A stretch of 30,578 nucleotides of DNA, from the IMG/VR virus record IMGVR_UViG_3300034102_000904, positions 1 through 30,578 of that record; one strand, written 5' to 3'. The number at the start of each line of letters is the position of its first letter. The first letter of the stretch is position 1. Made by a program: the position numbers and the translations under genes. Below are positions 2,730-16,920 of the stretch, piece by piece. Below the pieces are notes generated by a model. The model did no database searches, had not been told where the DNA came from, and was given only the letters and a program-made list of their open reading frames with translations. The stretch comes from a virus.

Positions 2730-3758
2730 TTAGGCTCCTGCTGGTTTCATAACAGTGGTCTCTGCCAGGCGCTTCCAGTTCAACACTGACATCTTGCGCA
2801 AGTCTGCAATCTTGAGAGCCATACGCAAACTCATCTCACGCAGACGATTTTTATTCTCGTCCATGAAGGCGATAATCTCGTCTTGCACACACTCGTCAAA
2901 GTCGTAGTCTGCAAACAACACACCGTCCTTGGCAATCTGCTTGATACGCAGGACCTTGTCACGCATGGTGTCCAGGGTCAAGTCCAAGTAGTGGCATCGG
3001 CTTTGCAGTGCATCCAAGTGGTCCCGCAATTTTTGCGAACGCATGGTGTCAAACTTCAAGTTGGTAATAAAAATTACCGAACCCTTGAACTCAAAACTGT
3101 CCGGAATGCCTTCGCTTCGCAGAATGCGACTGTCAGACAACCAGGAAATCTTACGCTTCTTGCCTGAGTCCAAGGCACCCTTGAGCAGGTTAAGAGCAAC
3201 GTCATCTAACAAGATGCTGTCACAGTCATCAAACACCAACACACAATTAGGATCTGAATACTTGTACAGGGTTTGGTACAGGCCAATGGGACTGGCTGAG
3301 CCTTTGACAACCTCGGCCTTAAGGCGTTTGCTGGCCAGTTTGTCGAACAAACAGGCCTTGTCAATTTCTTGCTCAACGCCGTAGCTCTTGCCCACGCCCG
3401 GGGGGCCACTCACAATCATAGCACGGATGTCGCCGCTCACACAGGCCTTGGTCATCTCATGCAGGATGTCAAAACGCTCACGGATACGATCCATGGCCTG
3501 TTCGTCTGTCTCTGCCACCACAGTGGGCTTGAATTTTACAGTGTTTTCTTGCACGGTTTCTCCTGAAGTATACTCAATGTCTGAAATGTTTTCTACCTTG
3601 ACGCGAATGGCAGCAGGGCAGTTGGGAAAGGTACCATCATTTTGCACGGTGACATAGCCACCTTTGGCACCAGTTTGGAATCCACTCACTAGAGTGAACA
3701 CTTGGTTTTGAACAGTTTTGTTGCGGTAAACGCCGCGAACGATACGAATTGCACTCAT
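2730..3758 (-). CDS. AAA+ family ATPase
   Basis: An AAA+ ATPase of 342 residues. Walker A GPPGVGKS sits at about residues 118-125 and Walker B VLVFDDCD at about 173-180. A sensor-1-like strand follows (VIFITNLKF), then DALQSRCHYLDL resembling the arginine-finger region. The first ~90 residues are a beta-rich domain without a recognised fold. I chose ATG 3758 (MSAIRIVRG) over an upstream in-frame start because GGAG lies six bases before it and the promoter at 3804-3832 overlaps the longer version. Similar ATPases occur in T4-like marine phages without an assigned role. It is not the clamp loader gp44 as far as I can judge, and its substrate is unknown. Confidence 0.85.
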   Translation of the reverse strand: MSAIRIVRGVYRNKTVQNQVFTLVSGFQTGAKGGYVTVQNDGTFPNCPAAIRVKVENISDIEYTSGETVQENTVKFKPTVVAETDEQAMDRIRERFDILHEMTKACVSGDIRAMIVSGPPGVGKSYGVEQEIDKACLFDKLASKRLKAEVVKGSASPIGLYQTLYKYSDPNCVLVFDDCDSILLDDVALNLLKGALDSGKKRKISWLSDSRILRSEGIPDSFEFKGSVIFITNLKFDTMRSQKLRDHLDALQSRCHYLDLTLDTMRDKVLRIKQIAKDGVLFADYDFDECVQDEIIAFMDENKNRLREMSLRMALKIADLRKMSVLNWKRLAETTVMKPAGA

Positions 3759-3803
3759 GGTTGGCTCCTTAGTGTGCTGTTGAACTTTGCTGTCTATGTG
3801 TGT

Positions 3804-3832
3804 ATTATAGCAAATTGGCATTTATTCGTCAA
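3804..3832 (-). promoter_or_regulatory. Early-type promoter copy 1 (before AAA+ ATPase)
   Basis: Minus strand -35 TTGACG (3827-3832), 17-bp spacer, extended -10 TGC-TATAAT (-10 at 3804-3809). The initial transcribed region continues ACACACATAGACAGCAAA, identical to copy 2. The -35 and spacer overlap the last codons and stop of the 60-aa gene. Confidence 0.88.
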
Positions 3833-4285: not shown

Positions 4286-4768
4286 CTACCTTTCTTTGTA
4301 TGCCACTATTGTAGCAGATCGGGAATTATTGGTCAAGCCCCGCCAGTTTGGAGGGTTATTAGTACTAAAGTACACAGAATTGTGTAGCTGTTCTGTGGGC
4401 ACACCATGCTCCTTGTAGCCCTCTAGCACCATGTCAAAGTACCCATCTGAGGGCAGGCTGTCTAAGTGCCCAGGTTGCATAAAGTAAGTCATGGCGTTTA
4501 CAACACGACCTTGATGTAGTACTTTTTTAGTACGACGATTGTAGTAGTGCGGAAATCCTTCAAGGAGGTCCAGTGCGTCAAGACACTTGGGTGTGATGGT
4601 CCATAGCACGCCATCAACATAGCTATCAGGGCACTTTACAACATCCGCAGGACCTGCAAACCGAAACACATGGTCTAGCAAAACAGCACGACCGTGACTT
4701 ACCGCGGCCGGGCATCGCTGAGACATGCCTTGCGAGTTGGTGTTCATACCATAAGCAAAGTATAACAA
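4286..4768 (-). CDS. Gamma-glutamylcyclotransferase-like (AIG2/GGCT fold) protein
   Basis: GGCT-fold proteins typically convert gamma-glutamyl amines or peptides to 5-oxoproline and free amine; phage versions are of unknown purpose. The 160-aa product has the fold's N-terminal loop YFAYGMNTN (residues 3-11) and the conserved acidic residue in DLLEGFPHYYNR (Glu70), with DGVLWTIT before it. The length is typical. About the last 15 residues are encoded by the DNA of promoter copy 3, so the tail is probably not part of the fold. It lies 5 bp after the 68-aa gene and shares promoter copy 4 with it. Substrate cannot be inferred. Confidence 0.82.
   Translation of the reverse strand: MLYFAYGMNTNSQGMSQRCPAAVSHGRAVLLDHVFRFAGPADVVKCPDSYVDGVLWTITPKCLDALDLLEGFPHYYNRRTKKVLHQGRVVNAMTYFMQPGHLDSLPSDGYFDMVLEGYKEHGVPTEQLHNSVYFSTNNPPNWRGLTNNSRSATIVAYKER
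4308..4336 (-). promoter_or_regulatory. Early-type promoter copy 3, inside a coding region
   Basis: Minus strand -35 TTGACC (4331-4336), 17-bp spacer, extended -10 TGC-TACAAT (-10 at 4308-4313, one mismatch from TATAAT). It lies fully within the 3' end of the GGCT-like gene and would serve the 74-aa membrane protein whose ATG is at 4283. Confidence 0.82.
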
Positions 4769-5010: not shown

Positions 5011-5039
5011 ATTATAGCAGAATGGAAATTATTGGTCAA
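5011..5039 (-). promoter_or_regulatory. Early-type promoter copy 4 (before 68-aa gene)
   Basis: Minus strand -35 TTGACC (5034-5039), 17-bp spacer, extended -10 TGC-TATAAT (-10 at 5011-5016). The leader carries the shared ACAGCAAA just before AGGAG. It lies directly downstream of the stop of the glycosyltransferase gene and restarts transcription at the cassette edge. Confidence 0.9.
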
Positions 5040-5049
5040 CCAACCAAAA

Positions 5050-5790
5050 CTAAACCCAAAGTTGTACAATTTTGGGGTCGCGTACTTCGTGCGGTTTGGG
5101 CTGGCCGTGAAACACCATCACGCAGGTATCAGAGTCAATCACAGCACCTGCTCCCGGCGAGCGAGGCACACGTATGGGAAAGTCGAACCCACCATCGGCA
5201 ATTTGCCAGCGATAACTTTTGATTCGATTGACGTCAAAGTATCTGCGATTGTTGTAGTCAATTGTGGCATTGAGATAGTCCTGGTCTCCGTGATACTGCC
5301 GTACAACTTTGGTCACGTCTTCAGATTTAAATTTTTCCCATACATGTTGATAACGCTCTACATTCCACCACATGATACTGCTGTTGATTCCAGAAAATGT
5401 TTCTTTTTGCAAGTATCTGAAATCTTTAATGCACCAAAACTTTTCTGTGTCAAGATGTGTGATCCACGTTATGTCTCCGTTGATCACAACATCCAAGTCA
5501 AAATACAACAAATCTCCTGAGTAATGTTCAGGATTAAACAACTGCATTTTGTACCACCAGGATTTTTTAGGACCGCCTATACCTGGCCAATCTTCCAAAC
5601 AATGTTTGATCATATGCGGTGGTACTGATCGATCATGTTCTGTGTAAACGTGCATTCTGCAGCCACCACTTAGATGTCGATTCAACATGTTGTACAGCCG
5701 TTCAACATATATCCAGTCATAACCAGTTCCGTGAATAACGCAGGCGCAGTCAATCATTTGGTCAGTGCGGGTTTGATTCTTTTTAGACAT
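5050..5790 (-). CDS. GT-A type glycosyltransferase (GT8-like)
   Basis: Predicted nucleotide-sugar glycosyltransferase of 246 residues. It opens with a short beta-alpha segment (CACVIHGTGYDWIYVERLYNML), then GPKKSWWYKMQLF typical of GT-A proteins around the acceptor groove, and YFDLDVVINGDI at about 96-107, where D98-x-D100 would bind the metal and sugar diphosphate. IMWWNVERY and FHGQPKPHEV near the end match the later GT8-like motifs (Asn-rich loop and metal-binding His). Its ATG directly abuts the TAA of the methyltransferase gene upstream. Sugar and acceptor are unknown; it is the last gene of the minus-strand left arm of the cassette. Confidence 0.82.
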   Translation of the reverse strand: MSKKNQTRTDQMIDCACVIHGTGYDWIYVERLYNMLNRHLSGGCRMHVYTEHDRSVPPHMIKHCLEDWPGIGGPKKSWWYKMQLFNPEHYSGDLLYFDLDVVINGDITWITHLDTEKFWCIKDFRYLQKETFSGINSSIMWWNVERYQHVWEKFKSEDVTKVVRQYHGDQDYLNATIDYNNRRYFDVNRIKSYRWQIADGGFDFPIRVPRSPGAGAVIDSDTCVMVFHGQPKPHEVRDPKIVQLWV

Positions 5791-6420
5791 TTAAAACTGC
5801 CAAACAATTTGGTACTCATCGTAGATTGGCAAATGATTTTTGCTCGCAAGATATTCTAATACTGCGCGACCTTTGCCTGTGCGTTGATAACTGTGGCACC
5901 AACGACTGTTGTCATCGATTGCAACCACAGTGCCTGGTCGTAAAACTGGTTCAATCTCTAAAAATTCTTTAAGGTGATGGTCGGCACTGGCCGTATCATC
6001 ATGCCAATCTACATCATAACTGTCTAAATAAAATAAATCAACTTGATCCAAATCTGTTTGCTGTTTTAACCATGCAACACTATCACCGCACGATACTTCA
6101 AATTGTGTGCTATTGACAAAATCTTTTGCTACTTCACAGGCTGCAGGATCTATATCTACACTACATACGTTTCCTCCGTGGTATTCAACAAAACGTGTGA
6201 ACAATGCCGCGCTTTGTCCATCAGACCAATTGTTAGCAGTTCGTAGCGTGCCAGTTTCAATGATATTAAAGTTTTTGGATTTTTGATTTAGCAACAATCT
6301 CCACATGATGTCAAATCCGATTGCACGATTGTATAATCCATGCGCCAATTGCCCGTGGCTATCAGCATTGATATTCAAAAGAGGATAGTAAGTTTTACGA
6401 TAATGTTCAAGCCAGTTCAT
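5791..6420 (-). CDS. Class I SAM-dependent methyltransferase (TylF/macrocin O-MT-like)
   Basis: A 209-residue methyltransferase. The SAM-binding motif I is IIETGTLR (53-60), followed by the acidic motif II strand VCSVDID (86-91, D89), a GDS motif (112-114) and the post-motif strand LFYLDSYDVDWHDD (129-142), which resembles metal-dependent sugar O-methyltransferases of the TylF type. I chose ATG 6420 over 6459 because it makes an ATGA overlap with the upstream gene. Neighbouring glycosyltransferases suggest that it methylates a sugar. The acceptor is not known. Confidence 0.8.
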   Translation of the reverse strand: MNWLEHYRKTYYPLLNINADSHGQLAHGLYNRAIGFDIMWRLLLNQKSKNFNIIETGTLRTANNWSDGQSAALFTRFVEYHGGNVCSVDIDPAACEVAKDFVNSTQFEVSCGDSVAWLKQQTDLDQVDLFYLDSYDVDWHDDTASADHHLKEFLEIEPVLRPGTVVAIDDNSRWCHSYQRTGKGRAVLEYLASKNHLPIYDEYQIVWQF

Positions 6421-7271
6421 GTTGAGCTTTCTAATGCAGGAGCAATTCTTTTTAGCCATATTCCTGTGCGTATTTCAGTTAGGGTATATTCAGTGTGGCA
6501 GATCTCTACCAGCCACCGATCTCGATTGATATCGTAAGACTTTTCTATGTTGGCCAGGCTCATGCCCACAGGTGCTGCCAAACTGCTCTCATGCACAATG
6601 GGCCTGCAACCTGCAATAGCGGCCTGCACACCAGGTCCCGAATTGTGGTTGACCACTGCATGATAGTTAAACCGCATGTCAAAGCTGTCGTAGGTGCCAG
6701 CAACCGGTCGAGGTTGTTCCACTGTGACATCAGGTGGTAACTGACTCAAGTTCAGTCGATTGCGTGGATGCGGGCGTATACTGATGGGCCGATCAGTGTG
6801 CTGTCTTACCAACTTAATTTGATCCAATACCCATTGTGTCATATCCATACCAGCAACTTGTAAACTGCGAGCATGTTGAGCAGCAATAACTACATTGGGA
6901 CTGGAGTTAAAAGTTATGGCCTGGCTGACATTCAGTGTGCATGGTCGATCCCAGTCTAAATTTTCTTCGTGTCCGTAGTATCCATCTCTTGTGATATTGT
7001 TTACTGCTACCTTCCAAGTCTGCCCACGATACAGCGCACCAATTTCCAAAACAATTACTGGTTTGTTTTGTGATCTATAGTGATCGTATACTGCTCGATT
7101 AGGTGCCATTCTCCCTGCCCACAGTACCGACCAAATTACAGCCGCATCAGATTCCATTGAATTTTCTTGTGTTTGTATACCGCGTGCCTGCAAGTAATCC
7201 AACACAGCTGACATTACAGGTCTGCTGTTTTGAGCACATTGAGAAGGAAAATAGGCTATGTTATTGATCAT
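6417..7271 (-). CDS. KpsS/KpsC-like GT-B type glycan protein, RPHP subtype (paralog A)
   Basis: A 284-aa protein resembling the C-terminal half of capsular polysaccharide KpsS/KpsC-type glycosyltransferases. It has TDRPISIRPHPRNR at about residues 162-175, where the RPHP motif is typical of the family, then HAVVNHNSGPGVQAAIAG, the nucleotide-sugar loop, but without the usual Glu. It is paralogous to the proteins at 8074, 11777 and 12696. The ATG at 7271 is 11 bp from the ATG of the divergent plus-strand operon. It ends in an ATGA overlap with the methyltransferase. The reaction is inferred from fold resemblance only; a non-catalytic role is possible because of the missing Glu. Confidence 0.72.
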   Translation of the reverse strand: MINNIAYFPSQCAQNSRPVMSAVLDYLQARGIQTQENSMESDAAVIWSVLWAGRMAPNRAVYDHYRSQNKPVIVLEIGALYRGQTWKVAVNNITRDGYYGHEENLDWDRPCTLNVSQAITFNSSPNVVIAAQHARSLQVAGMDMTQWVLDQIKLVRQHTDRPISIRPHPRNRLNLSQLPPDVTVEQPRPVAGTYDSFDMRFNYHAVVNHNSGPGVQAAIAGCRPIVHESSLAAPVGMSLANIEKSYDINRDRWLVEICHTEYTLTEIRTGIWLKRIAPALESST

Positions 7272-7282
7272 AAGTACGTGAG

Positions 7283-8077
7283 ATGAAACACACTGTAATT
7301 ACCACTTTCAACGCGGATGGTTATGCAAAGTACGGCCAACGCATGATTCAAACGTTTTTGCAAAACTGGCCAGTTGATCTGGTAGTGTATGCAGAAGGAT
7401 GTGACGTGACTGAAACAGCACCCAATCTTCTAGTGCGTGATATTGCTGTAGTCACCGAACTCACAGCATTCAAACAACAGTGGGCGGGTGTGCCCCGAGC
7501 CACAGGTGATGTCAGTGCTGATCCAATTAGATCGCAACGCAAGGATGCCGGCAAAGGATTCAAATGGGACGCTGTGAGATTTGCCCACAAGGTCTACAGT
7601 ATTTTCCATTGTGCAAAAAATGCACAAACTGATTGGCTGATTTGGATGGACGCAGACACTGTGTGCCATAGTCCTATCACTCAAATTGATTTAGCAAGAC
7701 TGTGTCCAGATACCATGGATCTTTGTTTTTTAGGGCGGCGTGGCAAGTTCAGCGAATGTGGACTGTACGCTATGAATCTTCGTAGCCAGCGCACAAGAGA
7801 TTTTCTAGCACAATTTCAAAGATATTATGATCAAGCCGAACAAGGTATTTTTACTCTAGCCGAATGGCATGATTCGTTTGTGTTTGATGCAGTAAGAAAA
7901 CATCATCCTCTAGCGGAGCTAGATTGGTCAAGTCATTTGATCACAGGCGAAGGCCATCCCTTGATCAACTCAGACTGGGGTGCATATTTGGATCATCTCA
8001 AAGGCAAACGTAAAATCACAGGTCGCAGTCCGGCCACAGACCTAAAGGTCCAACGAACAGAGGCATACTGGCAATGA
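7283..8077 (+). CDS. GT-A type glycosyltransferase, first gene of the plus-strand island
   Basis: A 264-aa glycosyltransferase. A Rossmann-like start (MKHTVITTFNADGYAKYGQRM) leads to KWDAVRFAHKVYSI and then DWLIWMDADTVCHSPI, where D123-x-D125 is the metal/nucleotide-sugar DxD. ECGLYAMNL and EWHDSFVFDAVRK follow, matching the acceptor-side motifs of GT-A enzymes. It differs clearly from the GT8-like proteins at 5050 and 13697. It begins 11 bp from the divergent gene A and has only a weak GTGAG before the ATG. Its end overlaps the next gene by ATGA. Sugar specificity cannot be read. Confidence 0.8.
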   Translation: MKHTVITTFNADGYAKYGQRMIQTFLQNWPVDLVVYAEGCDVTETAPNLLVRDIAVVTELTAFKQQWAGVPRATGDVSADPIRSQRKDAGKGFKWDAVRFAHKVYSIFHCAKNAQTDWLIWMDADTVCHSPITQIDLARLCPDTMDLCFLGRRGKFSECGLYAMNLRSQRTRDFLAQFQRYYDQAEQGIFTLAEWHDSFVFDAVRKHHPLAELDWSSHLITGEGHPLINSDWGAYLDHLKGKRKITGRSPATDLKVQRTEAYWQ

Positions 8078-8874
8078 ACTGGATATTTCTCAACAAAAAA
8101 AACTCTGACGAGTACATAGAAATGTTTGCTCGAGGATCTGGTGTTGTGCCAACAGAATTAGAAACATGGCGTTACGAAGATAGTGATGCTCCGCTGGTGA
8201 TCCGTGGCATCATGAAACACAAGATTATCAAACAGTGCTGGGAACACAAGAGACCGTTTTGGTACATGGATTCAGGATATGTTGGCAATAGGCCCAACCT
8301 TCAAAATCCACATGGATGGAAGCAATGGCATAGGCTAGTGGCCAACAACTTGCAGCACGGTGAGGTGGTGCCGCGGCCTGCTGATCGTTGGCAACGTCAC
8401 GGTATTGCCATGCCTGTACGTCGATATGGCAGCAAAATACTGCTGGCAGTGCCGGACGAAAAACCTTGTGTGTTTTACAATATCAATCTCTCAGAATGGA
8501 TTGAACAAACAGTTGCCACAATCAAGCAGCACACTGACCGAGAGATTGTGATACGTGAACGCAATCCCAATCGCCAGGCACGAGTGGCCAGTGACTTGCA
8601 ATCAGCACTAACTGATGTGCATGCTGTGGTTACGTATAATTCAATTGCAGCCACAGAAAGTGTGCTGGCTGGTGTGCCAGCATTTGCATTGGCACCATCA
8701 AACGCTGCTATTCCAGTGGCCAATACTGATCTATCTAAAATTCACAATCCGTGGTACCCCGAGCAAGATCAAATCTATGCGTGGGCATGCCACTTGGCTT
8801 ATGGGCAGTTTCACAATTCAGAACTGCTGGATGGTACTGCACAAAAAATATTACAGGAGACATATGATGCATGA
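8074..8874 (+). CDS. KpsS/KpsC-like GT-B type glycan protein, Glu-retaining subtype (paralog B)
   Basis: A 266-aa protein clearly homologous to the protein at 12696. Both share VIRGI.K.K, FWYMDSGYVGN-type, RPADRW-type, YNINLSEW-type and TDREIVIRE segments in the same order. The RPHP motif of paralogs A and D is replaced by RERNPNR, but the following loop TYNSIAATESVLAGVP keeps the Glu typical of KpsS-type GT-B enzymes. ATGA overlap with the GT-A gene before it; 11-base overlap with the FkbM methyltransferase after it. Probably a sugar transferase or a regulator of one. Confidence 0.72.
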   Translation: MNWIFLNKKNSDEYIEMFARGSGVVPTELETWRYEDSDAPLVIRGIMKHKIIKQCWEHKRPFWYMDSGYVGNRPNLQNPHGWKQWHRLVANNLQHGEVVPRPADRWQRHGIAMPVRRYGSKILLAVPDEKPCVFYNINLSEWIEQTVATIKQHTDREIVIRERNPNRQARVASDLQSALTDVHAVVTYNSIAATESVLAGVPAFALAPSNAAIPVANTDLSKIHNPWYPEQDQIYAWACHLAYGQFHNSELLDGTAQKILQETYDA

Positions 8875-9517
8875 ACATTATGGTTGGCACTTTCCCGACT
8901 TTGAAACACACTTTCCCAAAATGCTGAAAAAAAGCGTTGACAAGGGACTTCCGCCTGAATACCAAATTGCTGTGCGCAACCGCAGTATTGGTCTGTGTTC
9001 CAAACGCAGAACTGCACTGGACATTGGTGCCAATGTGGGCTTATGGAGTCGAGACTTGGTAGATAATTTTGCCAAGGTTGTTGCGTTTGAACCTGTGGCT
9101 GTGTTTAGAGAGTGTTTGGAAAAGAATGTGAGTGGCCCTAACTTTTTTATTAGTCCACTGGCACTAGGCGACCACGACACTCAAGCCACCATGATCATCA
9201 CAGAAGGCAATAGTGGGCACAGTCACTTGGATCCTGATACCCTGGGCACCGGCGATGTGCAAGTGGTAAAACTTGATAACTTAAACATGGAAGATGTAGA
9301 CTATATAAAGATAGACTGCGAAGGCTATGAATATCGTGTGTTGCAAGGTGCAGAACAAACTGTGAAACGTTGTAGGCCTATCATGGTGATAGAACAAAAG
9401 CCACATGATGCCTACAGCAAAGACTATGGACAATTTGCTGCCATAGCACTGCTGGAATCATGGGGTATGATCAAACTAGATCAAATTAGAGATGACTGGA
9501 TCATGGGATGGATGTAA
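8864..9517 (+). CDS. FkbM-family SAM methyltransferase
   Basis: A 217-aa FkbM-type O-methyltransferase. It has ALDIGANVGLWS (51-62, SAM motif I), VVAFEPVAVF (72-81, the characteristic FEP), and further on VDYIKIDCEGYEYRVLQGAE, the hallmark KIDxEGxE-xxVLxGA of FkbM proteins. I set the start at ATG 8864 (MMHEHYGW), because AGGAG lies at 8855-8859; the second ATG at 8867 has slightly better spacing. Longer in-frame readings run into the previous gene and lack a binding site. FkbM proteins often methylate sugars in polysaccharides and natural products, which fits the cassette. Confidence 0.88.
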   Translation: MMHEHYGWHFPDFETHFPKMLKKSVDKGLPPEYQIAVRNRSIGLCSKRRTALDIGANVGLWSRDLVDNFAKVVAFEPVAVFRECLEKNVSGPNFFISPLALGDHDTQATMIITEGNSGHSHLDPDTLGTGDVQVVKLDNLNMEDVDYIKIDCEGYEYRVLQGAEQTVKRCRPIMVIEQKPHDAYSKDYGQFAAIALLESWGMIKLDQIRDDWIMGWM

Positions 9518-10143
9518 ACATGGTCGATGATCCAGATAAGAGTGCCAACGACTCTGTGCAATGGGATCGCAAATGGACTACCGAAAAGTATCAAGCTAAA
9601 CGACGAGCAAATTTTGAAACTGTCGATGCATACCTAAATCAGCCTGTGGGTCGATTGCTAGACATCGGTTGTGGTTTTGCTTGGGAGTCAAGATGGTTCA
9701 ATGAAAAGTATGGCACTGAACTTTGGTTACTGGATGGAGATGCTAGTACTAATGCTACCAAATCTGAAACTGCCAGTTATGGTAACTGGAATACAGATTC
9801 CGACCAATTAAAATTTTATCACACATTTGATTTTTTAAATTCGAAATTACAAGAATTAGGTACAAAAAATTACCGCCTAATAGATGCAAACAATATCAAT
9901 ATACCCGGCGATGTTAAGTTTGATGTTATTACATCATGGCTCAGTTGCGGACATCACTATCCTGTAAAAACCTACATAGACTTGATGAAAAAACATTCAC
10001 ATGAAAACACTAGAATAATTTTAGACATTAGATGCAAGGGCACAGCCACAAACTACATTGGTGTAGATGGATTTGAAGTTGTGAATGTTGTGAGTAACGC
10101 AGGTGGCAAGAAACGAGCTAGTGTGGAAATAAAGTTGTTATGA
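9508..10143 (+). CDS. SAM-dependent methyltransferase
   Basis: A 211-aa class I methyltransferase. The SAM motif RLLDIGCGFAWESRWF occurs at about residues 49-64, then ELWLLDGDAS for motif II, and FDVITSWLSCGHHYPVKTYIDLM for the post-core strand and helix. The start ATG (9508) overlaps the FkbM stop by 10 bases; ATG 9520 is an alternative with two bases between the genes. It is AT-richer than the first genes of the island. It ends in an ATGA overlap with the 26-codon ORF. Substrate unknown; a sugar or lipid-linked acceptor is suggested by its neighbours. Confidence 0.82.
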   Translation: MDVNMVDDPDKSANDSVQWDRKWTTEKYQAKRRANFETVDAYLNQPVGRLLDIGCGFAWESRWFNEKYGTELWLLDGDASTNATKSETASYGNWNTDSDQLKFYHTFDFLNSKLQELGTKNYRLIDANNINIPGDVKFDVITSWLSCGHHYPVKTYIDLMKKHSHENTRIILDIRCKGTATNYIGVDGFEVVNVVSNAGGKKRASVEIKLL

Positions 10144-10220
10144 ACCCCTATTACTTAGAATCCGTAATAACAAGGCACAGAGTTCCAAAAACAACATACG
10201 TAGAGGTAAATTACAAATGA
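10140..10220 (+). CDS. Micro-ORF, 26 aa, overlapped at both ends
   Basis: ATG at 10140 overlaps the TGA of the preceding methyltransferase (ATGA) and its own TGA at 10218-10220 overlaps the ATG of the next methyltransferase (ATGA). The 26-residue product starts MNPYYLESVITRHRVPK and ends in EVNYK; it is basic and Tyr-rich with no recognised family. The exact double overlap matches every other junction of this operon, so it may be a true minigene or translational relay; alternatively it may be the remnant of a deleted gene. Confidence 0.5.
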   Translation: MNPYYLESVITRHRVPKTTYVEVNYK

Positions 10221-10780
10221 CCATAATCAATCCTGACTATCAAAAACAACTGAACCGCATGCATGCCAAAGGCAAATTTAGAAACGGTCACAAAGCCTAC
10301 AGAATTGTAGAGCAATTTCTTAAAGACTATCAACCCAGTAGTGTAATGGATTTTGGATGTGGCAAGGGTGCTTTAATTGCAGGCATTAAAGAACTGAACC
10401 CGGAAATTGTATCTGAAGGATATGATCCTGGCAATCCTGAATTTGCAAAATTGCCCAAAAAAACATTTGACGCTGTTGTCAGCACTGACGCTTTGGAGCA
10501 TGTTGAACCTGCTTACTTAGACGAAACATTGCGCATGATCAGCAGTAAAATGGGTCGCTGTGGATTTTTTAGAATTGCCTGCTATCCGGCCAAAAAGAAG
10601 TTACCCGACGGACGTAATGCACATTTGATTGTAGAATCACCTGAATGGTGGCGCGAAAAACTAGAGACAGTTATGGGAGTTAGGATTGTCTGGGAAGAAA
10701 TTAGCGTGTTTGACAAGTCCGATAAGTGGGACTGGGTCACAGGCCATAACTATGATGTGATAGTGGAGATTGCAGATTGA
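10217..10780 (+). CDS. SAM-dependent methyltransferase (Methyltransf_11/23-like)
   Basis: A 187-aa class I methyltransferase with SSVMDFGCGKGAL (41-53, motif I), EGYDPGNPEF (motif II region) and FDAVVSTDALEHVEP, the classic post-I motif (DALEHV) of the Methyltransf_11/23 group. Compact, with no extra domains; ends GHNYDVIVEIAD. ATG at 10217 overlaps the micro-ORF stop. The TGA overlaps the TTG start of the exostosin-like gene. A small-molecule or sugar acceptor is inferred from the context. Confidence 0.85.
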   Translation: MTIINPDYQKQLNRMHAKGKFRNGHKAYRIVEQFLKDYQPSSVMDFGCGKGALIAGIKELNPEIVSEGYDPGNPEFAKLPKKTFDAVVSTDALEHVEPAYLDETLRMISSKMGRCGFFRIACYPAKKKLPDGRNAHLIVESPEWWREKLETVMGVRIVWEEISVFDKSDKWDWVTGHNYDVIVEIAD

Positions 10781-11790
10781 TTAAGTTAATAGTGGTAGGC
10801 CGTCAAGGACCAAAAAGTGAAATTGACTCGTTTCGAACTTTGTCGTTTTCTTCTACTCCCCATCTTGTAGACATGCTCAAAGACTACATTGAGTTTGAAG
10901 ATTTTGATGCAACTAAAACTTACGATCCAACTGATATTTTTTTAATAATGGCACAGTTATATCGTGATCCTGTTGTAAGAGAACAATTTAGTGACTGTAA
11001 AGTAATTGTTGATTTATGTAGAGAAGGCATGATGGCAGACTGGGATCAAGTTTACTATTTGCTTGAACCTGGGCATGTGATCATGTACGGAAGTTATTCT
11101 GACGAGCCTGTGTCAAATGTTATATTTGTACCCAATTTTATGTGGTATAATGAAAGCCTTGACAACATAATCAAAGGACGAGATAGCTATGTTCCGAATA
11201 GAAATTATTCCCGTAAGTTTCTCATGCCCATTGGCAGAAAAAATAAAATTCGTGATCAAGTGGTAGAATTTTTAGAATCTCAACTTGAAGATTCATATTG
11301 GAGTTATATACGACGTAACAAGGCCTTGCCCGGGGAGTCAGAATCTGTACCTGGTGCCAAACGATGGGATACTAGACATCAAAATCCCATGTGGTATGAT
11401 GACACTTGTTTTAGTGTAGTAATTGAATCAGTGACTAGTTGGCAAGAAAAAATAGTGCCCATGCTGACTGAAAAAATATACAAGCCTATAGCATATCAAC
11501 ATCCTTTCATGGTCATTGGTGCAGCAGGCATTTTAAAATATGCACGGTCCCAAGGATTTGAGACATTTGAAAATTTGTTTGATGAAAGTTACGACGAAGA
11601 AACTGTGCTTGAAGTAAAATTAGACATTATTTTGCGTAACATCAAAAACTTTGAAAAAATACCGTATAGCCAGTTGACCCAGCAAAAATTACAACACAAC
11701 CACAAGTTGTTTTACAACAGATCAGTAATTCAACAAAGCATGATAGATTCTATTGTGCGACCAATAGAAGAATTTATCAATTTGTCTTAG
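10777..11790 (+). CDS. Exostosin-like glycosyltransferase-type protein, TTG start
   Basis: A 337-aa protein with a C-terminal signature seen in exostosin-like phage and bacterial proteins: FSVVIESV, then LTEKIYKPIAYQHPF, MVIGAAGILKY and FDESYDEE. The N-terminal part looks like a GT-B Rossmann half (KVIVDLCREGM, VIFVPNFMWYN). I take the start as TTG at 10777: GGAG at 10765-10768 sits eight bases upstream and TTGA overlaps the previous stop. It is the last gene of the plus-strand island; its tail overlaps the convergent gene by 14 bases. A distant relative lies at 18825-19829. Probably a glycosyltransferase, donor unknown. Confidence 0.72.
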   Translation: MIKLIVVGRQGPKSEIDSFRTLSFSSTPHLVDMLKDYIEFEDFDATKTYDPTDIFLIMAQLYRDPVVREQFSDCKVIVDLCREGMMADWDQVYYLLEPGHVIMYGSYSDEPVSNVIFVPNFMWYNESLDNIIKGRDSYVPNRNYSRKFLMPIGRKNKIRDQVVEFLESQLEDSYWSYIRRNKALPGESESVPGAKRWDTRHQNPMWYDDTCFSVVIESVTSWQEKIVPMLTEKIYKPIAYQHPFMVIGAAGILKYARSQGFETFENLFDESYDEETVLEVKLDIILRNIKNFEKIPYSQLTQQKLQHNHKLFYNRSVIQQSMIDSIVRPIEEFINLS

Positions 11791-12706
11791 TAAGATAAGG
11801 CAAAAACTTCTGCCAGATTAGCCCAGCACGACCATCTGCGTCTGACCAGTGTGCGGCTGCTAGATCATTGATCCATTGTGATCTATCAAACGACTGAGGT
11901 GACTCAATGTTATCTAAGTTTTTGTTGGCCACTGCCCAACTCACACAACTCTCATCATCAGCAAAAATTGGCACATTGGCCATGACCGCGGCCACGCTGG
12001 CTGAACTGTTGAAAAATACTGCGGCATGTGCATTTTGCAAATTATCTACCAATTTGGATTGTGCTGGGTCTACTATGGTTATGTTCGGCAATGACTGAAA
12101 TTTAGCAAAGTCTTCTAGCTTGTATGCACCTGGATGAGGCCTTACTAAAATATGTCTGCTAGAATGTACTCTAATGCGTTTTATCTTGATGCCTAACCAG
12201 TGTATGGGATCTAGCGTTTTCATAGCAAAGCCGCCATCACGTTGCATGCATATCAATATATGTCCATTTGGGTGAACTGCTGGCGCATCATGTAATTTGA
12301 TATTGAGTCTTGTGCTTATTTCCATCCACTTGTCATTGCTACTATTGTGGTTGGCATATTCTGCTCGATCATAAAATGGACCACCAACACTATAACGCAA
12401 GTAGGTGCCATAATCATCTAGATATTTCCAGCAACTGGCATCAATGCACATGGTGTGAAATTTACGGCGTTGTTGTTCAGCAATGATTTGTTTTCTTAAC
12501 GCAATATTTCTACCACCTGTGTTGGTTGTGGCCCAGCCCAACATTACTGCTAGCCTGCCTGGAACATAGTTGTAGTCATACTCTATTACCACGCTACCTC
12601 CACAGTGTTTGACTCCGGCAGCAAAACTTTCTAAACATTCAATTTTTCTAGAATGTTTTCGATAGTTAGCAACAGAGCTAACGTAGACTACTGCATCAAT
12701 GGTCAT
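11777..12706 (-). CDS. KpsS/KpsC-like GT-B type glycan protein, RPHP subtype (paralog D)
   Basis: A 309-aa protein of the same family as paralog A. It has HILVRPHPGAYK followed about 40 residues later by HAAVFFNSSASVAAVMANVP, that is, the RPHP motif is present but the loop Glu is missing. The N-terminal half (AVVYVSSVANYRKHSRKIECLESFAAG) looks like a Rossmann domain, and VMLGWATTNTGGRNIALRK resembles the acceptor-side region. ATG at 12706 overlaps the stop of paralog C by 11 bases. Its 3' end overlaps the convergent plus-strand gene by 14 bases. Probably a glycan transferase or a partner of paralog C. Confidence 0.7.
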   Translation of the reverse strand: MTIDAVVYVSSVANYRKHSRKIECLESFAAGVKHCGGSVVIEYDYNYVPGRLAVMLGWATTNTGGRNIALRKQIIAEQQRRKFHTMCIDASCWKYLDDYGTYLRYSVGGPFYDRAEYANHNSSNDKWMEISTRLNIKLHDAPAVHPNGHILICMQRDGGFAMKTLDPIHWLGIKIKRIRVHSSRHILVRPHPGAYKLEDFAKFQSLPNITIVDPAQSKLVDNLQNAHAAVFFNSSASVAAVMANVPIFADDESCVSWAVANKNLDNIESPQSFDRSQWINDLAAAHWSDADGRAGLIWQKFLPYLTKTN

Positions 12707-13700
12707 TTAGAATCCGCCAGGCAGTGCCGTCACGCATTTCTACTTCGGTAAACTGACAGTAGGCCATGTGCCTTGCCCAGTAAAGAACTTCATCTAGCGT
12801 GGGAATCTTTGGCGTTTCAATTTCACTAAGTGATTGGCTGCACAATGCGGCCGCGGCATTTGGTCCTAATGTGATAGCAGGCTTACCCAGCAACAATGCT
12901 TCGCCGGCTGCAATGCTAGAGAATGTGACTAAGCAATGCACATCTTGTGCCAGAGCCATTTCCATAGTGTTGTCACTGAGTCTAGCTGCTCGTGTTGCTT
13001 TGAGTCGAGTCACTACAGGACGATCAGTATATTTTTTTATTTCATCTTGTGTTTTTTCCAACCATTCTTCAAGGTTGATGTCGTACAAGTTTAAAAGTTT
13101 TTGACTAGGCGGTGCCAACAAGATATTGGTTCCAGGTTTAAATTTTGTCAATTGAACTTTAGTGCGAGCAAATCTATCACCGGGCCTCTCTATCATAGGA
13201 CCAAAATTTTGCACATCGTTTTTGGTAATTCTGTGATACAGTTTGCGTTTGCCGTTGCCAAAGTACCCTGTATCCATGTAATAAAAATCTCTGCCGGCGG
13301 CACGACATCCATCCATTTGTTTGCGTTTGGTGATACCACGTATCACAGCCGGAGCCATGGTATCTTGTTGTTTTTCCCAAGTTGAAATTTGTCCGCCTGC
13401 GCCTTGAACAAAACTTTGCAGTAATGGATCGTACATATGCCCTTTTCTTTCGTATCTGTATTCACTGTCTAGTGCCACAACTTGATTGACAGGCACAGCA
13501 GCCAATTGTTCTTGTAACTTTTCCAACGTAATGCCGTAGTACGCACCTTCGGGATCCACACGGTATTTCAATATGTTTTTAAACAGTTGTTGAATTTCTG
13601 GAACTGTTTGGTCCAACACATGTGGATCAGGTGGCGCAGGTGGTGCAGGAGGCGTGGGTGTAATATATGTTGTTTCGTCTTCGAGTTCCCAGTCTGTCAT
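12696..13700 (-). CDS. KpsS/KpsC-like GT-B type glycan protein with Pro-rich N-terminal extension (paralog C)
   Basis: A 334-aa homolog of the protein at 8074, sharing VIRGITKRK, FYYMDTGYFGNG, ERPGDRF, YDINLEEW and TDRPVVTR-type segments. The loop TFSSIAAGEALLLGKP keeps the Glu while RPHP is replaced (TRLKATRAAR). Before the shared core lie about 110 extra residues that start MTDWELEDETTYITPTPPAP, with a Pro-rich linker and a helical region (IQQLFKNILKYR). I take ATG 13700, which makes an ATGA overlap with the upstream gene; the longer reading needs a TTG. The extension may be an anchor or partner-binding segment. Confidence 0.75.
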   Translation of the reverse strand: MTDWELEDETTYITPTPPAPPAPPDPHVLDQTVPEIQQLFKNILKYRVDPEGAYYGITLEKLQEQLAAVPVNQVVALDSEYRYERKGHMYDPLLQSFVQGAGGQISTWEKQQDTMAPAVIRGITKRKQMDGCRAAGRDFYYMDTGYFGNGKRKLYHRITKNDVQNFGPMIERPGDRFARTKVQLTKFKPGTNILLAPPSQKLLNLYDINLEEWLEKTQDEIKKYTDRPVVTRLKATRAARLSDNTMEMALAQDVHCLVTFSSIAAGEALLLGKPAITLGPNAAAALCSQSLSEIETPKIPTLDEVLYWARHMAYCQFTEVEMRDGTAWRILNDH

Positions 13701-14383
13701 TCCGGCAACCTTTGTTGACAATAATCAGTGAGCATGCGTTCCCGATGCCACTCGTTGCCTTGTGGCGTATCAGCAAACTCGTGAAAGCATGGAGTGCCCA
13801 AGGTATAGTGTAAGAGCTTGGCGTCGGGGTTTGGCCCGTATTCATCAGGCAACCAATTCCATTCTGGCGGTAGTTCGCCTATGCGTTTGTCTTCTAGCCA
13901 CGAGAAGCGATGTAGTTCAGCACCTGTGGCTTTTTGCACAAATTCAGATGTGAGTTTTCTATTGGGATGACTGTTACAATTCCACAGTATCACACTTGAC
14001 CAGTTCTTGCGTGGATAGTCTTCGTTCTTTGCGCCAAGATATTTTTCAGTCATACGTGTTTTGTAATCGTGCTTGACTACCATAACATCTTTGTCATATT
14101 CTCGTAGGTTCCAAAGTTCCGCAATATCTCCGCGTACAATCATGTCGCCGTCAATGAATATTGCCCAGCCTTCGTATTGCATGAGATGTGGCACAAGGAA
14201 TCGTGTGTAGATAAAATGATTGCTGCCGTCTGTGTGTGTTTCGCTATAGTCTCGAAACAAGTTCAATGCCACTGGCACAATGGCCACTGGTTGACTGCTG
14301 TTGCGAATGATTGAATTTACACAGGTATGGTATGCAATTGCTTCTCGTGGGTCATACCCTACAAAAATTGGAATTGGTTTCAT
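13697..14383 (-). CDS. GT8-like glycosyltransferase
   Basis: A 228-aa GT-A glycosyltransferase with the GT8-like layout: PIPIFVGYDPREAIAYHTC at the N-terminus (donor base binding), YTRFLVPHLMQYEGWAIFIDGDMIV (D78-x-D80, metal and sugar diphosphate), SSVILWNC (acceptor loop) and KLLHYTLGTPCF (His of the late metal-binding motif). All expected motifs are present, so it is probably active. It overlaps the cytidylyltransferase-cupin gene (ATGA at 14380-14383) and paralog C (ATGA at 13697-13700). Similar proteins are frequent in aquatic bacteria and their phages; the sugar is unknown. Confidence 0.87.
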   Translation of the reverse strand: MKPIPIFVGYDPREAIAYHTCVNSIIRNSSQPVAIVPVALNLFRDYSETHTDGSNHFIYTRFLVPHLMQYEGWAIFIDGDMIVRGDIAELWNLREYDKDVMVVKHDYKTRMTEKYLGAKNEDYPRKNWSSVILWNCNSHPNRKLTSEFVQKATGAELHRFSWLEDKRIGELPPEWNWLPDEYGPNPDAKLLHYTLGTPCFHEFADTPQGNEWHRERMLTDYCQQRLPE

Positions 14384-15141
14384 TTGCGTTCAATGTCCTC
14401 TTCCACACAATCTTCTCCAAACTGTATTTCAATCAGTTTGAGTGGACGGTCAGTTTCGTTACACAGTTGGTGCCATTCGTTACGATTGATCCAACATGAC
14501 TCATGTATGGTCATGTGGTCTTTGACATCTCTATCTGTGCTGGAATCCAGTGTGTATACTGTGGCTTCGCCTTCGGCCACAAACCAAAACTCTGCTCGCT
14601 TGTCATGCCGTTGCATGCTCAAACAAGTTTTGGGAGTAACAGTAAGTTCTTTTAGTTTGGTGTTGGCGCCAACTTCGTGTAACACACGATAGTATCCCCA
14701 AGCTCGATCTGTCTTGGGCTTTTTCCAGTCTTCGAGAATCCACGAACTGGAATTCTTTTTATCTTCGCCGCCTACGCCAAACACAAATTCTAAATTAGAA
14801 TCTACCACATCCATCTCGGGAATGTTTTTGTCAGTGCGATCACCGCCATTGGCAAATACCAACGTTGCGTCGGGATAGTGTGCTCTAACTTGACGTATGA
14901 ACTCTTTGGCCGAGCCATCTGCATCGTCAAATGTATACACTTCGTCTACCATGGCAAGATTGTTTATCACACACAATCTTTCCGTCCATGGCATGAATGG
15001 CCGACCTTTTTTACGTGTGAGCCATTCGTCTGAATTGAGTCCCACAATCAGCATGTCGCCTAGGGTACGGGCAGCTTTAAAATAAGCAACATGCCCAGAG
15101 TGTAGCGGATCAAACCCGCCTGTAACAAGTACGATTTTCAT
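14380..15141 (-). CDS. Cytidylyltransferase-like domain fused to a ManC-type cupin
   Basis: A 253-aa two-domain protein. Residues 1-125 form a nucleotidyltransferase of the TagD/RfaE type, with VTGGFDPLHSGHVAYF (HxGH at 14-17) and the ISSTK-like position replaced by DKKNSSSWI (about 127-135). Residues about 148-253 match the cupin of type II phosphomannose isomerases: WGYYRVLHE, LTVTPKTCLSMQRHDKRAEF (His179, Glu184), WINRNEWHQL (His224) and IEIQFGEDCVEEDIER. It could activate a sugar or polyol phosphate and isomerise or epimerise a sugar. I set ATG 15141 because an upstream in-frame start would overlap the uvsY-like gene and lacks a binding site. Confidence 0.88.
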   Translation of the reverse strand: MKIVLVTGGFDPLHSGHVAYFKAARTLGDMLIVGLNSDEWLTRKKGRPFMPWTERLCVINNLAMVDEVYTFDDADGSAKEFIRQVRAHYPDATLVFANGGDRTDKNIPEMDVVDSNLEFVFGVGGEDKKNSSSWILEDWKKPKTDRAWGYYRVLHEVGANTKLKELTVTPKTCLSMQRHDKRAEFWFVAEGEATVYTLDSSTDRDVKDHMTIHESCWINRNEWHQLCNETDRPLKLIEIQFGEDCVEEDIERK

Positions 15142-15142
15142 G

Positions 15143-15158
15143 CAGGTATTTACACCTG
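15143..15158 (-). promoter_or_regulatory. Palindrome with TAAATA core just before the nucleotidyltransferase ATG
   Basis: CAGGT (15143-15147) and ACCTG (15154-15158) flank GTAAAT on the minus strand; the whole holds TGTAAATA, close to the T4 late promoter box TATAAATA. It sits only one base from the ATG at 15141, so it could be a late promoter giving a leaderless RNA, an operator or a chance match. A near copy precedes the radical SAM gene. Confidence 0.3.
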
Positions 15159-15602
15159 GATGTCTTCCATGCCTGCAGTTCTTAGGCGTACAACGTGCCC
15201 CATTTGCCACTGTTTGGTATCTAGCCCCTTCATGATACCCAACCATCGATTGCGTAGATATGCCACTTCGTTGATTATGGTTTCGTAATCAATTACTTCA
15301 TCTTCGCCATCCACATACTTTTCAGCATCTCGACTGGTAAGCGCACGAGCATAACCTTCTAGATACTTTTGAAAGTGTTTTCTACGGATTTTACGTAGTT
15401 GAATGTTGAGAAAGTTCAACACAGCTTCAATTTCTTGAAGCTGGTTGTACCTAAACTCAGTAATGCCCGGAAGTGCTGTTATGTTTTTTTCAACAATTCC
15501 AGCAATGCGGCAGTCTTTTTTGGCGTCAGTTATTTCACGCTCGTAGTGTGCTATAAAATCTGGAATAGCATCGAGATCGGCAACTACTCGACTATACCAC
15601 AT
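15150..15602 (-). CDS. uvsY: UvsY-like recombination mediator
   Basis: In T4, UvsY loads UvsX onto gp32-coated single-stranded DNA. This 150-aa helical, basic protein has the length and layout of UvsY from aquatic T4-like phages: an N-terminal YEREITDAKKD helix, RYNQLQEIEAVLNFLNIQLRKIRRKHFQ, SRDAEKYVDGEDEV, and the C-terminal block EVAYLRNRWLGIMKGLDTK followed by RLRTAGMED, which aligns with the end of T4 UvsY. The position two genes from uvsX and in the gp32 unit supports it. ATG 15602 overlaps the preceding stop (TAATG). The identification rests on resemblance and context, not strong motifs. Confidence 0.68.
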   Translation of the reverse strand: MWYSRVVADLDAIPDFIAHYEREITDAKKDCRIAGIVEKNITALPGITEFRYNQLQEIEAVLNFLNIQLRKIRRKHFQKYLEGYARALTSRDAEKYVDGEDEVIDYETIINEVAYLRNRWLGIMKGLDTKQWQMGHVVRLRTAGMEDIQV

Positions 15603-15868
15603 TAATTTTCCCAGTCGTCTTCGTTGTAATCCTCTTCTTCAGGATCCTCTTCTTCGTCGTCTTCTGTGTAGTCTTTGTCGTTGTCAAGATATGCTGTTAG
15701 TGCTCGTTTGATATCGGTGTCACCTTTGAATGCGGTCCGAATATCCTCAACATCACTATCATTGTCCATTAAAACTTGTACCACAGTTTCTGCTGCCTCG
15801 TTGCGATCAACTGTGTTTACAAATCGCTTGAGCTCTCCCCAAATTTCTGCTGCAACTGTTTCACTCAT
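15602..15868 (-). CDS. Small acidic protein between uvsX and uvsY, 88 aa
   Basis: Starts MSETVAAEIWGELKRFVNTVD and ends in a run of Asp and Glu with few other residues (from about residue 62 on), giving a very acidic disordered tail. No family recognised. ATG at 15868 overlaps the uvsX stop by ATGA; the stop overlaps the uvsY-like start by TAATG. An acidic tail of this sort could mimic DNA or bind UvsX or gp32, whose T4 homologs use acidic tails for protein contacts; this is inference from position and composition. Confidence 0.75.
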   Translation of the reverse strand: MSETVAAEIWGELKRFVNTVDRNEAAETVVQVLMDNDSDVEDIRTAFKGDTDIKRALTAYLDNDKDYTEDDEEEDPEEEDYNEDDWEN

Positions 15869-16920
15869 TCTGCTTCCTCCTCGCCGGTACTTACCTCTTC
15901 CTTGATATTTCCAAAGTCTTTCATCACAGTGTCAAGACAGTTATCATCATTGCGTTCCCAACCTTTGCGGAACTTCTTGATGATTTCACCTTCGGTTGTG
16001 GTAAACACTAGACTGTTGCCTTCTTTCTTGAGCAGTCCTTTTTTCTCAATCAAATCAGTTAATCCTGAGTAAGGACTCATACCTGTTGTGTAAGGAATCT
16101 TGACTTGCACGCCTTCGAATGGTTTGGCATAGCGTGTTTTCATTACTTTGCAACCAGCACGGATGCCCATGACATCAGTAATCTTGTTGCCGTCCTCATC
16201 CTCTTTCAGTTTCATTTTCTTCATGGCCACAACAATTGAGCTGGCGTAAATGAAACCTTGACCGCCACTAATTTTGTCGTCTGGGTCAAACATATCCTGG
16301 CTTGCGTATGTGTGATTGGTACAAACCAAACCCACATTGTATGAACCAAACATGTTCACACAGTTGCGCACCAAGGCGGTGAGAGCTTTGGGTTTACGTC
16401 CTAGATCACCCTTCATTTCGCCTGCATCAAACTGGTTCACATCAGTGGGCGTTAGCAACATACCCAATGAGTCAATCACAAACATGACCTTGGGACGCTC
16501 ACCATCAGGCAAGGCCTTGTAGTCACTCATGAATGTGGAGATAGTTTTAGCCACATCATCAATCATGGCCATACTCAGCTTGAGTAGTTTACTATCGCTT
16601 GTGTCAACTCCGAGTGCTTTGAGCCAATCTTCATCAAGAGCATTTTCACTGTCAATTAGCACCACAAAGATGCCTTGCTCTTGTGCGTTCTTCACAATGT
16701 TACCTGAACAGATATAACTTTTACCTGCACCCGAGTCGCCAGCAAACACAGTGACCTTGCCTAGTGGAATGCCACGGTTAAAGTCTCCTGAGATCAGGTA
16801 GTTCAAGGCATAGTTGCCTGTAGATATCCAGTCTGTAGGATCGTTAAATCCAATACTAAGACCATCAATGCTCTTAGTGATTTCCTTGCGGAACTTGCTT
16901 ACGTCAAATGGTTTTCCCAT
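15865..16920 (-). CDS. uvsX: UvsX recombinase (RecA family)
   Basis: Strand-exchange recombinase of T4-like phages, 351 aa (T4 UvsX is 391). Walker A GDSGAGKS at residues 61-68, Walker B VMFVIDSLGM at 145-154, and the region GLVCTNHTYASQDMFDPDDKISGGQGF at about 203-229, which corresponds to the RecA/UvsX DNA-binding loop region and the conserved Gly-Gly. ATG at 16920 has AAGGA upstream at about seven bases. It lies between the 257-aa unknown and the small acidic gene in the gp32 unit. Assignment is firm. Confidence 0.96.
   Translation of the reverse strand: MGKPFDVSKFRKEITKSIDGLSIGFNDPTDWISTGNYALNYLISGDFNRGIPLGKVTVFAGDSGAGKSYICSGNIVKNAQEQGIFVVLIDSENALDEDWLKALGVDTSDSKLLKLSMAMIDDVAKTISTFMSDYKALPDGERPKVMFVIDSLGMLLTPTDVNQFDAGEMKGDLGRKPKALTALVRNCVNMFGSYNVGLVCTNHTYASQDMFDPDDKISGGQGFIYASSIVVAMKKMKLKEDEDGNKITDVMGIRAGCKVMKTRYAKPFEGVQVKIPYTTGMSPYSGLTDLIEKKGLLKKEGNSLVFTTTEGEIIKKFRKGWERNDDNCLDTVMKDFGNIKEEVSTGEEEAE

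Follow-up and report, generated by a model that had tools for sequence, protein, structure and literature searches.

The window analysed here, the stretch IMGVR_UViG_3300034102_000904, comprises an entire IMG/VR viral record of 30,578 bases and represents part of the genome of an uncultivated jumbo phage. Between positions 5050 and 15141 it carries a cassette of 13 genes that is 99% coding and encodes three DxD glycosyltransferases (GTs), four KpsC-fold paralogs (Kp proteins), one GT-like protein, four methyltransferases and one nucleotidyltransferase (NT)-cupin fusion. The cassette genes are listed below in window coordinates.

5050..5790, minus strand: GTa246, DxD glycosyltransferase (YFDLDVV); phrog_1962 glycosyltransferase, E 7e-27; 41 open reading frames (ORFs) in related loci
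5791..6459, minus strand: MT222, class I S-adenosylmethionine (SAM) methyltransferase, Methyltransf_24 (TylF-like); PF13578, 35 bits, above cut-off; phrog_24975, E 1e-40
6417..7271, minus strand: Kp284, KpsC-fold paralog with QxxxS and RPHP; Kp family profile
7283..8077, plus strand: GTb264, GT-A fold transferase with invariant DxD (D123, D125); AlphaFold2 (AF2) model, predicted local distance difference test (pLDDT) 93; Glycos_transf_2 slightly below cut-off
8074..8874, plus strand: Kp266, KpsC-fold paralog without QxxxD and without HP; AF2 pLDDT 95; KpsC, WbbB and KrkA are top PDB matches
8864..9517, plus strand: FkbM-family methyltransferase; PF05050, 74 bits
9508..10143, plus strand: MT211, class I methyltransferase; PF13489, 28.5 bits, barely above cut-off
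10217..10780, plus strand: MT187, class I methyltransferase; PF13489, 38 bits; phrog_24759 methyltransferase, E 2e-26
10777..11790, plus strand: Exo337, probably a glycosyltransferase, from a large family of phage paralogs (TEK motif)
11777..12706, minus strand: Kp309, KpsC-fold paralog with QxxxG and RPHP; family profile and motif counts
12696..13721, minus strand: Kp341, KpsC-fold paralog without either motif; family profile; GT8 fusions in 12 related loci
13697..14383, minus strand: GT8_228, GT8-family transferase (IDGD); PF01501 (Glyco_transf_8), 35 bits; weak PDB match to WbbM
14380..15141, minus strand: NTcup253, HxGH nucleotidyltransferase plus type II mannose-6-phosphate-isomerase cupin; PF01467, 48 bits; PF01050, 72 bits

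Two starts were reset, that of the FkbM gene from the ORF start at 8615 to the ATG at 8864 (AGGAGA upstream) and that of NTcup253 from 15246 to 15141. The genes form three strand blocks: NTcup-GT8-Kp341-Kp309 runs leftward behind uvsY, GTb-Kp266-FkbM-MT211-MT187-Exo337 runs rightward, and Kp284-MT222-GTa runs leftward again. An initial annotation of this DNA had described nearly all of the genes as joined by ATGA overlaps; the tight packing holds, but the overlap is exactly ATGA at two junctions and TTGA at one, and the remaining junctions are overlaps of 10-43 nucleotides (nt), abutting ends or a 73-nt gap. The convergent pair overlaps by 14 nt and the divergent pair lies 11 nt apart. The divergent genes are Kp284 and GTb264 (window 7271-7283), and their head-to-head layout recurs in relatives. 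Ordinary promoters are unlikely between them because a gap of 11 bases leaves no room.

Enzyme families encoded by the cassette

The three DxD glycosyltransferases of the initial annotation were supported, GTa246 by phrog_1962, GTb264 by a GT-A model together with a near-cut-off Glycos_transf_2 match, and GT8_228 by Glyco_transf_8. The AF2 model of GTb264 adopted a GT-A fold for which Foldseek returned LARGE1, glycogenin (GT8) and GT6 transferases as the nearest structures, and a PDB sequence profile search with GTb gave no match. Pfam likewise confirmed four SAM methyltransferases, namely one Methyltransf_24 (TylF-like), one FkbM and two Methyltransf_23 proteins. The label 'exostosin-like' for Exo337 was not borne out, as no Pfam family matched any of 19 members of its family and no PDB profile match was significant. 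Exo337 is a probable glycosyltransferase, and a dozen or more further members of its family are encoded elsewhere in a 364-kb relative.

Both domains of the NT-cupin fusion were present as annotated (PF01467; MannoseP_isomer, PF01050). In PDB profile searches, the best alignments of the NT half were to ethanolamine-phosphate and glycerol-3-phosphate cytidylyltransferases, and the type II isomerase cupin signature was conserved in 21 relatives of the fusion. Homologs with ~50% identity were found in SAR86, SAR11 and Rhodobacteraceae genomes. Their context was considered as a clue to the sugar and set aside, since the fusion is chromosomal in SAR86 and SAR11 (L211, L225 and other genome loci) and, in the two annotated loci, adjoins the housekeeping genes gyrA or polA and not glycan loci. 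An ADP-heptose pathway was also considered, as the NT domain resembles HldE2, and is less favoured: six records held no SIS_2 GmhA, and the PDB profile favours cytidylyltransferases that use CTP.

KpsC-fold proteins with altered catalytic motifs

The four proteins annotated as KpsS-like retrieved one another in profile searches and are paralogs. The fold was modelled for Kp266, and Kp284, Kp309 and Kp341 were assigned by family profiles. In the AF2 model of Kp266 (42 relatives, pLDDT 95), the ten best PDB matches and nearly all of the top 20 were KpsC, WbbB and KrkA, which are retaining transferases of 3-deoxy-D-manno-oct-2-ulosonic acid (Kdo), with E 3e-6, probability 1.0 and a template modelling score of ~0.3-0.5; the earlier family call is thus upheld by profile and by model. 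Against a viral library the same model matched proteins of phages and, in Tetraselmis virus 1, proteins labelled 'capsule polysaccharide biosynthesis'. Sequence searches gave weaker matches: a PDB profile reached WbbB below threshold, Pfam Capsule_synth gave nothing above any threshold (best value 0.094, in one of 42 relatives), and DUF6716 was also weak.

Two motifs define the retaining Kdo transferases, namely QxxxD, in which the Asp serves as catalytic nucleophile, and (K/R)xHP, which binds CMP (PMC9587256, PMC12887879). QxxxD was found in none of the four Kp proteins of the window. Kp284 and its relatives carry QxxxS with RxHP (53/53 members), Kp309 and its relatives carry QxxxG with RxHP (70/76 members, with QxxxD in four divergent ones), and Kp266 and Kp341 have neither QxxxD nor the HP motif. 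The spacing from Q to H is 36 residues in Kp284 and Kp309 versus 37-38 in WbbB and KrkA. Compared with WbbB (GT99), KpsC (GT107) and KrkA (GT140), the window proteins are therefore alike in fold and, in Kp284 and Kp309, in the Q and (K/R)xHP residues; they differ in that the Asp of QxxxD is replaced by Ser (Kp284) or Gly (Kp309) and that both motifs are missing in Kp266 and Kp341. By this motif test the Kp proteins share the predicted fold but fall outside GT99, GT107 and GT140.

QxxxD together with RxHP was kept in four divergent homologs (L165, L077, L071 and L242); those of L077 and L242 are extra copies, each adjoining diverged paralogs, and the four include the Kp protein of podovirus ct7QV12, with QVPQD and RPHP. 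In the Kp tree, the QxxxS line formed one fully supported clade and the HP-less proteins, with one exception, another, and the QxxxG line was sister to the QxxxD copies. The parsimonious reading of this tree is that a canonical enzyme was duplicated and that the nucleophile was lost repeatedly before marine and other phages split. Kdo-8-phosphate synthase (KdsA) is encoded in two related cassettes, L086 and L140 (E 5e-88, far better than DAHP synthases); this hint that Kp proteins may use a CMP-Kdo donor is only suggestive, and no member of the KdsB family (CTP_transf_3) was found in seven records.

One slot, occupied in either orientation or empty

On the minus strand, from right to left, the window encodes a radical-SAM protein, terL, p808, a gp32-like single-stranded-DNA-binding protein (SSB), uvsX, uvsY, the cassette, small genes and an AAA protein; the position between uvsY and the small genes had been described correctly, and uvsX, uvsY and the gp32-like SSB form its flank. 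The conserved flank and the two borders of the slot are as follows.

15865..16920, minus strand: uvsX recombinase, conserved flank; phrog_97, E 2e-67; 65% identity to Atu_ph07
15150..15602, minus strand: uvsY, right border of the slot; phrog_231
2730..3821, minus strand: AAA-type protein, the other border of the slot in relatives; phrog_1250, E 4e-84

The flanks had been called a T4-like core. The terL-ssb-uvsX-uvsY backbone is indeed present, and it belongs to a jumbo-phage clade nearest Atu_ph07, Phosso and GAP32. UvsX is 65% identical to that of Agrobacterium phage Atu_ph07 and ~66-68% identical to those of Phosso, CBB and GAP32 (phages of 350-490 kb), and its best 80 contigs in IMG/VR are at 83-99% identity. 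Contigs bearing near relatives of the window NT-cupin measure 364, 342 and 340 kb. A near-identity DNA search of GenBank phages with the window gave no match. On an unproven reading of the kinds of samples, the clade may be mostly lake-dwelling or freshwater.

We fetched 160 related loci, across which cassette genes co-occur downstream of uvsY, and classified 103 (window included) by what comes after uvsY. The allele was direct in 70, inverted in 22 (Kp284 first, on the opposite strand) and unclear in four; the other seven had no cassette, with uvsY adjoining the AAA gene. In the empty loci, the distance from uvsY to the AAA gene was 0.7-2.3 kb (681 bases in L052). The cultured phages Atu_ph07, Phosso and Vibrio phage 2.275.O share the terL-ssb-uvsX backbone and have no cassette at that place. 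Mapping the allele states on the UvsX tree required 19 changes; when only well-supported branches are counted, the 'direct' label still needs at least 13. Since ~90 related contigs hold the block in the interval from uvsY to the AAA gene, some of them in reverse orientation, the cassette is more than a chance assembly. Rather than being carried singly and scattered, its genes thus occupy a fixed slot in relatives, and the view of a multi-gene cassette that builds and methylates glycans is supported both by the family matches and by the conservation of the block.

One 335-kb contig (L242, G009:C57) is filed under a 'Neomarinimicrobiota' metagenome-assembled genome, RS350, and carries ssb, uvsX (77%), uvsY and largely the same family set. 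It is probably a marine jumbo-phage relative mis-binned into a bacterial genome. A second contig of Candidatus Neomarinimicrobiota RS350, G009:C77, also has cassette genes and is probably likewise of jumbo-phage origin.

The cassette diverges faster than its flanks

Divergence was measured in the 32 loci that share 97% or more UvsX identity with the window; the distinct sequences behind these medians are few, 2-15 per gene. Median ortholog identity in the flanks was 99% for UvsX, 97% for UvsY, 98% for SSB and 97% for TerL. Within the cassette it was high for NT-cupin (94%) and GT8 (93%) and lower for MT222 (60%), Kp266 (62%), FkbM (69%), Kp284 (72%), Kp309 (73%), Kp341 (84%) and GTb (84%). The cassette diverges faster than the flanks.

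Gene content also varied. Related cassettes contained SAM synthetase (L004, L022), GDP-mannose 4,6-dehydratase (L019, L063, L158), UDP-glucose dehydrogenase with an epimerase (L088), a Polysacc_synt_2 (PseB/FlaA1-like) dehydratase with RmlD (L072) and a pyruvyltransferase-like gene (L081), and GT25, GT17 and extra methyltransferases were variable accessory genes. GT8 and Kp341 form a single ORF in 12 related loci; therefore, this pair likely acts together. In this pattern, the locus behaves like a bacterial O-antigen or capsule serotype locus. It resembles group 2 capsule and O-antigen regions in having conserved borders that enclose a modular, changeable interior of genes for GTs, donor synthesis and methylation or pyruvylation.

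Promoter candidates and neighbouring genes

Promoters were scanned for by sigma70-like consensus match only. The best matches (11/12) lay near ssb-uvsX and directly to the left of the cassette, and none of this score was found within the cassette in the scan of the window. The one nearest the cassette is:

5011..5039, minus strand: sigma70-like extended -10 promoter (TTGACC-17-TATAAT); 11/12 consensus; precedes the small genes to the left of the cassette

A second minus-strand site (4062-4034) has hexamers identical to those at 5039-5011, TTGACC-17-TATAAT with TG before the -10. The two sites likely represent an early promoter of the phage clade. The T4 late promoter TATAAATA did not occur in the window. 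The distribution of predicted sites is compatible with expression of the cassette by read-through from upstream genes.

Several neighbouring genes are of separate interest. The small early genes include one like gamma-glutamyl cyclotransferase (window 4286-4768, phrog_2520). p808 (window 19844-22270) weakly matches a head or virion structural family, and in two sequences it is 52-69% identical where the adjoining terL and ssb are 97-98% identical. The ssb-uvsX interval is a second variable slot: where the window has p257 (window 16923-17696), L022, L086, L146 and L159 have radical-SAM genes or ORFs unrelated to it. At ~310-334 kb of the 364-kb relative G001 (L186-L187), at least five radical-SAM proteins alternate with Exo337-family glycosyltransferases. 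This array follows a baseplate wedge gene and an ORF of 4,900 aa, and that number of radical-SAM genes is unusual for a phage tail region.

Donor supply, export and the acceptor

The initial annotation saw a complete pathway, which is too strong: the NT-cupin is the only donor gene in the window, with no kinase, epimerase or dehydratase. The large relatives have 2-4 epimerase-family genes outside the cassette and no SIS_2 heptose isomerase. Because the donor set of the window is incomplete, part of the donor sugars would have to be supplied by the host or by further loci of the phage.

Hydrophobic segments of the kind that spans membranes were absent from all cassette proteins of the window. 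In five related records (three of 340-364 kb), undecaprenyl-phosphate sugar transferase (PF02397), Wzx (PF01943) and ABC exporter (PF01061) families were not found, with positive controls, and neither was GtrA; such family searches can miss divergent proteins, exporters included. The cassette thus differs from group 2 capsule and O-antigen regions, which have Wzx, an ABC exporter or a lipid-carrier priming enzyme, and from gtr-type seroconversion of temperate phages, which has the GtrA flippase and a membrane glucosyltransferase. A thymidylate-synthase-type (dCMP/dUMP) hydroxymethylase was found in none of six related records (three of 340-364 kb), with a positive control, although the records may be incomplete; Tet_JBP oxygenase gave no match, but its control was silent too. 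Because transmembrane, export and hydroxymethylase families are lacking in these searches, the enzymes would act on something cytoplasmic, namely a virion protein, nascent lipopolysaccharide (LPS) or DNA without the usual precursor.

DNA had been named among the possible targets, with glycosyltransferases decorating hydroxymethyl-pyrimidines against restriction as in T4. T4-type relatives practise this, and sets of GTs that hypermodify DNA have been described (Pyle 2024, as cited in PMC12619734). The absence of the thymidylate-synthase/dCMP-hydroxymethylase family from the six records disfavours it, and the sugar dehydratases, the pyruvyltransferase-like gene and the GT diversity go far beyond known DNA decorations; we consider DNA an improbable target.

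We favour a methylated oligosaccharide on a virion protein as the product. With slightly less than even confidence, we propose that the cassette is a modular, diversifying glycan-biosynthesis locus in a fixed slot (uvsY, cassette, AAA gene) whose most likely acceptor is a virion protein; that acceptor ranks first, in our judgement at about an even chance or just under. The NT-cupin would make or channel an activated sugar; GT8, GTb, GTa, the Exo-like protein and the HP-motif proteins Kp284 and Kp309 would add sugars sequentially in the cytoplasm; and FkbM and the three other methyltransferases would cap hydroxyls. The block would set a phage surface 'type' that is altered through gene replacement. 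We infer the reaction order, the sugars, the acceptor and the benefit from the gene set. Mycobacteriophages offer a precedent, as phage-encoded GTs decorate their virion proteins (Freeman 2023, as cited in PMC12619734); the window set is far larger and methylation-rich. p808 was considered as an acceptor, being variable among near relatives, and set aside because it resembles an internal or scaffold-type protein.

Several points weigh against a virion acceptor. The cassette adjoins recombination genes and not structural genes, and the link between product and virion is hypothetical. Transferases of the LPS core are also soluble and cytoplasmic, so the absence of an exporter is compatible with host LPS as acceptor, and divergent exporters may have escaped the family searches. 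In addition, similar cyanophage clusters have been published as a host-surface change against rival phages (PMC7824862). Accordingly, the enzymes may modify nascent host LPS or capsule precursors at the inner membrane face, with host exporters delivering the glycan to the surface, a reading that we rank second, as a close rival, though less likely than not. The supposed benefit, to which we give the same standing, would be superinfection exclusion by blocking adsorption of competing phages, together with less loss of progeny to debris. The Kdo-transferase fold, KdsA in two cassettes, a GCT/HldE-type nucleotidyltransferase and FkbM methylation all recall LPS or capsule chemistry, and diversification fits a host-surface target as well. 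On the other hand, the searches gave no membrane-bound or flippase component of seroconversion systems, the nucleophile of Kdo transferases is missing from each of the four Kp proteins, and a lytic phage gains only if infection is long.

To a product that is a small diffusible glycoside or sugar-derived metabolite, and not a polymer-bound glycan, we give scarcely any weight. Iyer et al. suggest that a second cyanophage cluster yields a sugar/amino-acid secondary metabolite (PMC7824862), and radical-SAM genes are abundant in these phages. However, up to eight consecutive GT-like proteins and the GT8-Kp fusion fit the assembly of a macromolecule-bound oligosaccharide better, and halogenase and carbamoyltransferase were not seen in the window.

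A bolder proposal builds on the virion acceptor: Kp284 and Kp309 would found new glycosyltransferase families that descend from double-displacement Kdo transferases, lack the nucleophile, use a CMP-(ulosonic) sugar and are perhaps inverting, Kp266 and Kp341 would use other donors or serve as scaffolding, and the whole would be a swappable, virion-coating 'serotype' locus. We rate this combination as rather unlikely.

Relation to known systems and meaning

It had been stated that phages are known to carry isolated glycosyltransferases. Clusters of this size are already known: the prototype is the 15-gene LPS/polysaccharide cluster of P-SSM2, one of the large polymorphic sugar clusters of T4-like cyanophages, which contain HIGH-superfamily nucleotidyltransferases, cupins, several GT families and O-methyltransferases and have been read as acting on the host surface (PMC7824862). 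The cassette is like the P-SSM2 type in being a large contiguous cluster, polymorphic among relatives, with an HxGH nucleotidyltransferase, a cupin isomerase, several GT families and O-methyltransferases, and the NT domain of S-SSM7 is 56% identical to that of the window. It differs in phage clade and slot (uvsY/AAA), in its four KpsC-fold paralogs with altered motifs, in the fusion of NT and cupin, in the direct, inverted and empty alleles of one locus, and in lacking a full set for donor-sugar production. Pelagibacter phage Mosig EXVC030M and podovirus ct7QV12 (Manatee Spring) likewise have Kp and GTb homologs adjoining methyltransferases, in clusters that are smaller, at other genomic positions and ~31-34% identical; that of Mosig includes a sulfotransferase (L164:12193-12810) and adjoins ribonucleotide reductase and ruvC genes. 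Glycosyltransferases were noted in 2025 as core genes of another aquatic jumbo lineage (PMC12619734) and go unmentioned in a jumbo-phage survey (PMC13037316). As far as we have checked, what is new is a fixed slot whose alleles are direct, inverted or empty, the presence of four KpsC-fold paralogs without the nucleophile, and the NT-cupin fusion in phages.

If these readings are true, jumbo phages hold an O-antigen-like locus of the surface-type kind, and antigenic diversification would not be a bacterial privilege. There would also be two large natural families in which the recently described Asp nucleophile of KpsC and WbbB is replaced by Ser or Gly and the CMP-binding motif is retained, beside relatives that keep the Asp, and these would amount to a natural experiment on altering or dispensing with the unusual mechanism of the Kdo transferases.

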